Positions 11,762-40,047 of a stretch of 54,497 bases of DNA are shown one piece after another. The position numbers were made by a program, and so were the translations under genes. Under the pieces are notes generated by a model, which did no database searches, was not told the DNA's origin, and saw only the letters and a program-made list of their open reading frames with translations. Source of the DNA: an uncultured Verrucomicrobiaceae bacterium (GTDB lineage Bacteria > Verrucomicrobiota > Verrucomicrobiia > Verrucomicrobiales > Verrucomicrobiaceae); contig CALMTT010000076.1 of assembly GCA_937872615.1 (NCBI GenBank), forward strand, positions 1 through 54,497. Reading direction: 5' to 3'. Position 1 is the stretch's first letter, and the number at the start of each line of letters is the position of its first letter.

Positions 11762-12511
11762 TTAGCGGATTTTCCAGATCTTCACGTCATCGATCCAGAC
11801 GGTGTTGGGGATCAAGAAGCTGAACCAGCGCTTCATCGGGTGTCCAAAGCCCTCCGAGCGGTGTTTGGCGATGAGTTTGCCATCGAGCGTGAGACGCATC
11901 TCATCGCCCACTGTGAGCAAAATGAGCTCATGCCACTCGGTGTCGGCCTTGAAGGGCACATTGATGCTTTTCGTCTTCAGCAGCGCTTCGAGGTCGGCGG
12001 GGACTTTTTGCTTCTTCGCGGCCGCTTCCTCACGGCGACGACGGTTTTCGAGGTTCATGACGCCGGTTTTGTGATCCACCAGCGTCACACTGCTCTGGCT
12101 GAGGATGCCGTAGCACAAATGCCCCGCCCAGATGCCTTTCGTCTCGCGATCCACAAAGCCGAGCTGCAAGGACTCGCCCTTGCTCAGCCCTGGAAACCGA
12201 AAACGCACCACCGCACCGCCATCCGTGAAGCCCGCCTCATGATGGATGTGCGCCGAGTGCTTGGCGGCCTCTGAGGCACTCGCGACCTTCAAAACGCCGC
12301 CATCGATGTCCGCCATCTTCACGTTCGGCACCCGGTCCGCCGTCGCGCTGTTCCACCCATTGCCGATGGCCTTCGCGAGGTTGCCGTCCTCTTCACGCTC
12401 AAACGCATCGTGAAAAACCAGCGTCGCGTTTTTCTCCAGCCAGGCGGTGGTGTCTTGGGAGAATGCCGAGTGTGTGATGGAGAAGGCTGAAAGGAGGAGG
12501 AGAAGGCGCAT
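11762..12511 (-). CDS. Secreted LamG/DUF1080-like protein
   Basis: A 249-residue exported protein. The signal peptide (MRLLLLLSAFSITHSAFSQ) contains a sequence related to a repeat found elsewhere in this window. The mature part reads as a concanavalin-like jelly roll: LVFHDAFEREEDG near the start, DGGAVVRFRFPG, EWHELILLTVGDEMRLTLDGK, and VWIDDVKIWKIR at the end. That pattern is typical of DUF1080/LamG domains that bind or cleave sugars. A charged helical insert (LENRRRREEAAAKKQK) is unusual within it. No catalytic residues are evident, so it is probably a binding or structural domain protein. Confidence 0.75.
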   Translation of the reverse strand: MRLLLLLSAFSITHSAFSQDTTAWLEKNATLVFHDAFEREEDGNLAKAIGNGWNSATADRVPNVKMADIDGGVLKVASASEAAKHSAHIHHEAGFTDGGAVVRFRFPGLSKGESLQLGFVDRETKGIWAGHLCYGILSQSSVTLVDHKTGVMNLENRRRREEAAAKKQKVPADLEALLKTKSINVPFKADTEWHELILLTVGDEMRLTLDGKLIAKHRSEGFGHPMKRWFSFLIPNTVWIDDVKIWKIR

Positions 12512-12562
12512 GGGAAAAGGTGAGACGTGAACTCCTTACGATACGCATTCGATCCGCGAAGC

Positions 12563-12670
12563 AAAGTAGCCATCTCGCTCCGCGAGATGAGCCCAACGCA
12601 TCGCAACTCCGATGCCGCATTCTCCGATCGAACGCCCTGAGCTCATCTTGCGGAGCAAGATGGCTACTTT
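12563..12670. repeat. Paired-hairpin REPIN-like element, family A
   Basis: Two 30-base arms in inverted orientation (12563-12592 and 12641-12670) flank a 48-base spacer. They match at 28 of 30 positions. Each arm folds on its own into a seven-pair hairpin with a five-base loop: CATCTCG/CGAGATG on the left and CATCTTG/CAAGATG on the right. The two differences between arms form one base pair (C-G against T-A), so pairing is kept. The right end supplies the last Lys codon and the TAG stop of the gene at 12664-13815. Confidence 0.88.
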
Positions 12671-13815
12671 TGCTGACGCAGATACTCCAACGCTGCCGCA
12701 CGAAACTCCGCCTCGGTCGGAAGCTTGCCGGTGCGTTGCTGGACCTCGGCGAGGTGCTTCCTCGCCCAAGTGAAGTAGCGCTGATGCGTGTGCCAGATGG
12801 GCTGCTTCTCGTTCTGTTCGTTGATGAGCCAGAAGCCGCCGGGTTTTTCGGGCGTGCCTTCGTTGTCGTAGAGTTCCCAGTAGAGCACGAAGGGGCAGCC
12901 CCATTCGAGCGCAGCGATCATGGTCTCGATGCTCTTCTTGTTTTGCACCTCGGGCGAGTAGCGACGCGCGGGGAAGCCGTATTCGCCGATGAAGACGCGT
13001 TTGCCGGAGATGCTCGGTTTGGGCTTCAGCTTCGACTCGAGGTGGTTGAGCGTGGCGTGGAGATCGTCGCGGATGACGCGCTGGAGGCTGTCGTAGCAGG
13101 AGTAGCTGACGAAATCGACATCGACCTGCGGAAGGATGTCGTTGGCGAGGCATTGGCCGCCTTTGAGATAGGGCTCGACGAGGTTCACCTCGGTGTAGTG
13201 CCAGACTTCGACGTTTTGATGCGGCGTGTCGCGCTTCGCGTCGTCGATGGCCTGCTGGCGGACCTTGAGCCAGGCGATGAAGTTGTCGCCAAAGTGCTCG
13301 GGAAAGGGCTGTTTCGGGTCAAAGTGCGGTCGCAGGTGCCAATCGCCTTCCCAGTGGCCGAGATAGAACTTTTTGCCGCTGCCGCTGTAAGTGCGCAGCA
13401 GGTGCGCGGTGAGGTCAAACATCTCGCGATACTCCAAATCGCGCTCCGCGGGCTTGAAGGTGCCCGCGCTGCCATGCGTGGTGAAGGGATAGGCCCAGAT
13501 GAAGAAGTGCGTGAACGGCATGTCGAGCACCGCGCGATGCGTCTGCTCCTTAGCGGCGATCTCGGCGAGCGTTTGCAGCCCCAGCTCATTGTTGAGCACA
13601 TTCGCCTTCGTTTTGCCAAACGAGGCCTGCTTCGAGATCGAAAACTTCATGATGCCCGACCCCAGCTCCGCGATCAGCTTCACACTCTCCATCAACGGCT
13701 CCTCCGCCGTGAACTGATACCGCCCGCCGATGGCCTGCGTGCCGAGAAAGAGGTTCGGCGGCTCCGCCGCCAATGACGAAACCAGAATGGCGAATGAGGA
13801 AAGAATGAGACGCAT
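12664..13815 (-). CDS. Secreted glycoside hydrolase-like TIM barrel protein (clan GH-A-like)
   Basis: A 383-residue exported protein. A signal peptide (residues 1-17, MRLILSSFAILVSSLAAEP) precedes a probable (beta/alpha)8 barrel. Candidate acid/base and nucleophile positions are Glu residues in YLGHWEGDWHL, VWHYTEVNLVE, RVFIGEYGFPARR and VLYWELYDNEG; the pattern WEGDW followed later by IGEYG suits clan GH-A hydrolases. The exact family is not recognisable. Its stop codon lies inside the family A repeat. It belongs to a run of minus-strand secreted genes that includes a pectate lyase and an esterase, in keeping with plant or algal polysaccharide breakdown. Confidence 0.72.
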   Translation of the reverse strand: MRLILSSFAILVSSLAAEPPNLFLGTQAIGGRYQFTAEEPLMESVKLIAELGSGIMKFSISKQASFGKTKANVLNNELGLQTLAEIAAKEQTHRAVLDMPFTHFFIWAYPFTTHGSAGTFKPAERDLEYREMFDLTAHLLRTYSGSGKKFYLGHWEGDWHLRPHFDPKQPFPEHFGDNFIAWLKVRQQAIDDAKRDTPHQNVEVWHYTEVNLVEPYLKGGQCLANDILPQVDVDFVSYSCYDSLQRVIRDDLHATLNHLESKLKPKPSISGKRVFIGEYGFPARRYSPEVQNKKSIETMIAALEWGCPFVLYWELYDNEGTPEKPGGFWLINEQNEKQPIWHTHQRYFTWARKHLAEVQQRTGKLPTEAEFRAAALEYLRQQK

Positions 13816-24908: not shown

Positions 24909-24942
24909 GCGAGAAGGGTAACGGGAGAACGAAGGAAATGCA

Positions 24943-25012
24943 AAAGTGCTCAGTTCTCAGTGCTCAGTCGAATCGCCCGGGTGAAAACTAAGCACTGAGC
25001 ACTAAGCACTTT
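24943..25012. repeat. Inverted heptamer-array element
   Basis: Two 26-base arms face each other (24943-24968 and 24987-25012). Each is built from three heptamers plus a partial copy: AGTGCTC, AGTTCTC, AGTGCTC on the left, ACTAAGC, ACTGAGC, ACTAAGC on the right. The right arm, reversed and complemented, matches the left at 23 of 26 positions. An 18-base spacer separates them. It lies in the gap before the hypothetical gene ending at 25050. Confidence 0.85.
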
Positions 25013-25049
25013 GGCCCTGCGAACATGTATTTCGCTCGATTTCGCCGCT

Positions 25050-31004: not shown

Positions 31005-31068
31005 AAAGTTGCCCTGTTCCTGTGGAACAGGCGCTCAGAACCTTGTTCCGCAGGAACAAGGCAACTTT
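31005..31068. repeat. Paired-hairpin REPIN-like element, family B, copy 1
   Basis: Two inverted arms each fold into a hairpin: CCTGTTCC-TGT-GGAACAGG on the left (stem 8) and CCTTGTTCC-GCA-GGAACAAGG on the right (stem 9). The outer ends AAAGTTGCC and GGCAACTTT pair with each other. The arms differ by a compensated stem pair (C-G against T-A), a loop base and one bulge. It lies between the divergent galM and the small membrane protein genes. A second copy is at 35199. Confidence 0.88.
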
Positions 31069-39967: not shown

Positions 39968-40047
39968 CGGAGGTTGGAGTCTAGGCTTTAGCCGACCCGC
40001 TAGATGCGAGACGCTCGGATCGCCTAAAGGCTAGACTCCAACCTCCG
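39968..40047. repeat. Paired-hairpin REPIN-like element, family C
   Basis: Two 28-base inverted arms (39968-39995 and 40020-40047) match at 26 of 28 positions and flank a 24-base spacer. Each arm holds a small internal hairpin: GGC-TTTA-GCC on the left, and GCC-TAAA-GGC on the right as read on the plus strand. The two mismatches form one base pair (G-C against C-G), so pairing is kept. It lies in the 256-base gap between the SixA-like and cytochrome genes, the longest non-coding gap of the window. Confidence 0.86.

Follow-up and report, generated by a model that had tools for sequence, protein, structure and literature searches.

The window analysed here is a stretch of 54,497 nucleotides from an uncultured Verrucomicrobiaceae bacterium. 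In a 152-bp gap directly after the end of a gene it contains two inverted 30-base arms, at 12563-12592 and 12641-12670, and the question is what kind of element these arms form and what about it is conserved. The sequence and the predicted folds bear out the original prediction that the arms are identical at 28/30 bases and that both differences (C/T and G/A) fall on a single stem pair: they are the two halves of pair 11-19 in each hairpin. A repeat search finds the longest inverted pair in the whole window here (12563-12595 / 12638-12670, 33 nt, 91% complementary), and a 28-base arm matches the window at 2 places, while 100 shuffles gave 0 matches. Folded by itself, each 27-nt arm takes the form ...((((((((((...)))))))).)), with energies of -9.2 and -8.2 kcal/mol and z about -5, while the whole element folds with z = -7.5. 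The Rfam matches within the window consist of one tRNA only, with nothing on the element.

Each arm consists of a GTAG tag, an 8-bp stem, a TCC loop, a bulged A and a 2-bp foot. The left hairpin, a REP as judged by sequence, folds and alignment of copies, occupies 12566-12592 on the plus strand, with its tag at 12566-12569, its stem formed by CATCTCGC (12571-12578) and GCGAGATG (12582-12589) with the TCC loop between them, the bulged A at 12590 and the foot pairs at 12569-12570/12591-12592. The right REP is inverted (12641-12667, minus strand) and is otherwise the same hairpin, with the stem pair changed from C-G to T-A (CATCTTGC/GCAAGATG). The spacer (12593-12640) differs among copies. GTAG-type REPs are defined by GTAG or GTGG at 0-2 nt from the hairpin foot, a stem of 7-20 bp and a loop of 2-5 nt (PMC6006769), and the GTAG, 8-bp stem and 3-nt loop seen here fall within that definition. 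The two REPs lie head to head, forming a REP doublet (REPIN) of about 100 bases, which spans 102 nt with its tags included and encloses no gene. We are highly confident that the element is a REPIN, a geneless, non-autonomous element made of an inverted pair of GTAG-tagged REPs; that it was moved by a RAYT and is now orphaned is what we infer from the comparisons below.

The original prediction pointed to a whole-genome search for the arm, and the arm proves not to be unique. In the host genome (6.8 Mb in 744 contigs, 91% complete) the arm pattern at 0-3 mismatches is found at 22 places, against 0 for the reversed-pattern control; a looser 3-mismatch pattern gave 205 matches against 90 in its control, many of them by chance, and only low-mismatch rows were used. 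About 24 hairpins of this family (family A) are found by pattern. Fourteen doublets besides that of the window bring the aligned set to 15, all with their tags pointing outward, a tag-to-tag length of 101-121 nt and spacers that are mostly unrelated, and we put the number of dispersed copies of the element at about fifteen to twenty. Family A is present in 23/35 genomes of the genus and in 0/21 genomes of other genera in the order, and is thus a dispersed, genus-specific family. Classical REPs usually exceed 100 per genome (PMC2817692); about 24 copies is low by that standard, and this counts against the REPIN reading. It is worth adding that in one genome (G025) many contigs (for example C12, C15, C31, C42 and C55, near position 101) have an end about 100 nt beyond a family variant that is tagged CTAGCC, which suggests that a repeated stretch there broke the assembly.

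Alignment of the copies shows what is being kept. The covariation set comprises 34 distinct units and 10 stem pairs, giving 340 cells, and includes inherited copies, so that the cells are not independent events. Among these units 95.3% of cells are paired, against 83.0% in shuffles, and 7/10 stem pairs show two-sided changes. The covariation across copies envisaged by the original prediction is present, since the copies differ with compensation: 40 of the 340 cells are changed on both sides of the pair and 1 on one side only. The TCC loop and the GTAG tag are also conserved across units. In 10 doublets with two ungapped arms, pairing holds at 159/160 positions inside the arms but at 127/160 between them, and therefore the maintained unit is the small hairpin of each arm and not the doublet's long stem. 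A long REPIN stem was considered as the conserved structure, and is ruled out by the heterogeneity of the arms.

That hairpin folding is kept had been argued originally from one compensated pair in one copy. Such a pair is insufficient evidence of selection on folding, because template-switch correction can change both sides in one step; the claim now stands on the many copies, the contrast between pairing inside and between arms, and the linkage to RAYT genes. In quasi-palindrome mutation, template switching corrects imperfect palindromes, making both changes at once. It is possible, although we consider it doubtful, that the compensated pairs arose by such mechanical correction during replication and not by selection on folding. 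The ratio of 40 two-sided changes to 1 one-sided change is what one would expect if both sides change in a single event, as is the replacement of A-T by C-G at pair 7-23 with no wobble intermediate, whereas correction of this kind does not explain the conserved loop and tag, and has left the palindromy between arms uncorrected (127/160). G-U pairs are almost absent among family-A stems, which fits either DNA-level selection or one-step palindrome correction. This alternative bears only on the origin of the variants, and is compatible with the identity of the element as a REPIN.

The transposase that would move such an element was looked for in the host genome and its relatives. The host genome has eight Y1-transposase matches, and four RAYT-like genes of that genome have tagged hairpins on either side, which differ in sequence from gene to gene. 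No RAYT flanked by family A was found in this 744-contig assembly, the best relatives being 47-49% identical and adjoined by other hairpins. In four genomes of the genus (G011, G024, G025 and G026), however, a single RAYT lineage, 83-100% identical to the query, has family-A REPs on both sides; the copy in G026 has a stop within the aligned stretch. The linked RAYT that had been anticipated is thus found in sister species and not in the host. Records with a matching RAYT are from Prosthecobacter sp. VE4, Prosthecobacter debontii and Verrucomicrobiaceae MAGs, and among these records too the gene is bordered by family A on both sides, the REP flanks having been read in two of them. RAYTs at 73% and 69% identity lie beside family-A-like hairpins with the stems CTTCTCGC and CATCACAC respectively, both altered yet paired, so that divergence of the RAYT is matched by correspondingly altered stems.

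The 215-aa RAYT protein has the HUH (NHVH), WQ and tyrosine (YIAQNP) motifs and REP flanks of the E. coli RAYT, TnpAREP (PDB 4ER8), but differs from it in its length and matches that structure with 25 bits only. It matches the NCBIfam model REP_Tyr_transpos with E 1e-18, a score below the curated cutoff of the model, and its motifs resemble those of subclass 2.4/2.7 (classes in PMC6006769). We regard it as very improbable that the doublet represents the two decayed ends of an IS200/IS605 insertion sequence, which would make it a MITE of this family. The genus does have hairpin ends and Y1 transposase relatives, but the associated genes fit the IS200 model (E 1e-4) much less well than the RAYT model (E 1e-18) and are flanked by REPINs that carry the GTAG tag, a REP hallmark. 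The Y1 transposase gene of its own that an IS200/IS605 insertion sequence requires is absent from the element. Of the original label of REPIN/IS200-type, then, the REPIN half is upheld by the repeats, the covariation and the RAYT of the sister species, and the IS200 half falls, with no transposase gene inside.

The number of REPs follows the presence of the gene: genomes with the cognate RAYT have a median of 20 family-A copies and those without it 1.5 (P = 0.0008, kinship not corrected for). The host genome, G016 and G029 have 24-26 copies each despite no cognate RAYT having been found in them, which also counts against the REPIN reading. Assembly gaps are an unlikely cause in G016, because that genome is in six contigs. 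In the host genome the cognate RAYT is apparently missing or unassembled, and the copies look orphaned. RAYTs can be lost, and a cognate RAYT in the same genome is not strictly defining for a REPIN.

A likely course of events for the REPIN is that each arm folds while its DNA is single-stranded, the lagging-strand template being one such occasion. The RAYT would then recognise the GTAG, the hairpin, and the loop and bulge, cut near the tag, and copy or move the doublet. In the host genome, with the cognate RAYT absent or unassembled, the copies would now be mostly inherited vertically.

Joined flanks were compared at seven loci. At the locus of the element itself, a REPIN stands in the matching position beside the left gene in G007, the junction in G033 is short and free of REPs, and the interval in G016, G011 and G029 consists of other sequence of about 0.9-1.1 kb. 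The sites on contigs 31 and 571 have a REPIN common to several species, while the contig 693 site is empty in G016, G029 and G004 and the contig 31 site is empty in G057. From the common filled sites and the sites empty in relatives, we conclude that the REPIN population has come down mainly by inheritance, with copies gained or lost from one species to another. At the contig 529 site (L006 against L223), the two REP types of the doublet are in opposite order in the host genome and in G068, as if the element had inverted or had been inserted twice.

The position of the element relative to its neighbours requires some comment. On the right is an ORF of 383 aa (12664-13815, minus strand), whose stop codon TAG (12664-12666) lies within the GTAG tag of the right REP. 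Its last codons, CAG CAA AAG TAG, overlap the right outer arm, and the final residues QQK derive from arm-like sequence; several relatives without arm sequence end in LRR or LKR before the stop. In G007 and G029 the arm-like CAGCAAAAGTAG is kept at the gene end with no hairpin adjoining, and may be what is left of an element or a target that existed beforehand. To the left of the REPIN lies an ORF of 249 aa (11762-12511, minus strand). Neither flanking ORF has a Pfam match. Use of the TAG of the tag as a stop codon is a known habit of GTAG REPs, many of which lie just after gene ends (PMC3733652).

This location right behind a gene end, which so many REPs share, also favours a different reading, that the repeat is retained for a role in RNA (as a transcription terminator, or a stabiliser of the mRNA 3' end of the flanking genes) and that its mobility is past, and the right REP, with CTACTTTTGC after it, does score as one terminator-like site. 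We consider this improbable. The T-run is short and derives from the outer arm, selection on RNA would tolerate the G-U pairs that are so rare here (1 one-sided change in 340 cells, with 40 two-sided), and the linkage to RAYT genes would be left unexplained.

The REPIN has one unusual feature, in that conserved arms continue outside the tag, which is absent from the standard REP definition and is a point against the REPIN reading. In the window these are GCGAAGCAAA on the left (12556-12565, plus strand) and GCGTCAGCAAAA on the right (12668-12679, in minus-strand reading). Across 124 units from the genus, conservation runs through positions -11 to -1 outside the tag (GCGAAGCAAA or GCGYCAGCAAA) and ends at -12. 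The strongest positions are A at -3 (98%) and A at -1 (93%), which are found also in most copies without the rest of the arm. The family-A copies that flank RAYTs carry outer arms, whereas family B has no conserved outer arm. At contig 678 the left flank is a native gene end, and therefore not every outer arm was brought in by the element. The idea that the arms are a target palindrome was tried and rejected: GCGAAGC..GCTTCGC without a REPIN occurs at 3 places only, fewer than in the control. With no stock of such empty palindromes, the arms seem to belong to the repeat itself. In other bacteria the cut made by TnpAREP falls at CT or CA close to the REP, with GTAG as a guide (PMC8266576), and by analogy family A might be cut at the CA of -4/-3. 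We tentatively suggest that the mobile unit of family A may reach about 10 nt past GTAG, with two distinguishable ends (GCGAAGCAAA and GCGYCAGCAAA), that the conserved CA may belong to the recognised cleavage signal, and that the unit may persist vertically after loss of its RAYT.

The kind of element is already known and is well explained in outline; family A is a new, genus-specific GTAG REPIN/RAYT family. It resembles the GTAG REP super-family of Di Nocera et al. (2013, PMC3733652), which includes GTAG-20 of Opitutus terrae (Verrucomicrobia), in its GTAG/GTGG tag, 6-9 bp stem and short loop, in having stem subfamilies with complementary alternatives and heterodimers, and in its location at gene 3' ends with the tag TAG as stop codon. 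It differs in that most copies have a conserved arm of 10-11 nt beyond the tag, and in having tens of copies, not hundreds. The text of that paper, leaving its figures aside, does not name the family-A stem and loop or the genus. Extra inverted sequence outside the tag is shared with GTAG-23 of T. roseum (PMC3733652), but GTAG-23 inserts in small palindromes, of which family A has no empty stock. Like the REPINs of Pseudomonas fluorescens (Bertels and Rainey 2011, PMC3116915), family A consists of dispersed, RAYT-linked inverted doublets, although its cognate RAYT was not found in the host genome. These systems have been studied mostly in Proteobacteria, and family A adds a well-resolved REPIN/RAYT lineage from Verrucomicrobia. 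The sister species, some having the cognate RAYT and some lacking it, the filled and empty sites and the clade-specific stems constitute a natural experiment on REP-RAYT specificity, and the same family is suited to asking whether REPINs outlive their transposase.

Other repeats are present in the genome and in the window. Family B (GTGGCCGATTTTC...) was considered as part of the same population and rejected, having its own RAYT on contig 616, no conserved outer arm and no copy in the window. A second doublet at 31005-31068 (AAAGTTGCCCTGTTCC...GGAACAAGGCAACTTT) looks like a REPIN of a different family, because the RAYT on contig 595 of the host genome has hairpins of the same kind at its sides (GTTGCCCTGTTCCTGCGGAACAGGGC). 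A 32-nt inverted pair at 39968-40047 (CGGAGGTTGGAGTCTAGGCTTTAGCC...), with 16 nt between its arms, is possibly another hairpin repeat, and 24940-25015 is an inverted, partly self-repeating stretch of AGTGCTCAGT-like units. Finally, the start of the 383-aa ORF contains a GAATGACGAATG-like sequence (13772-13808) with many matches in the genus, about 80-95% over 34-66 nt, which is probably a separate dispersed repeat.
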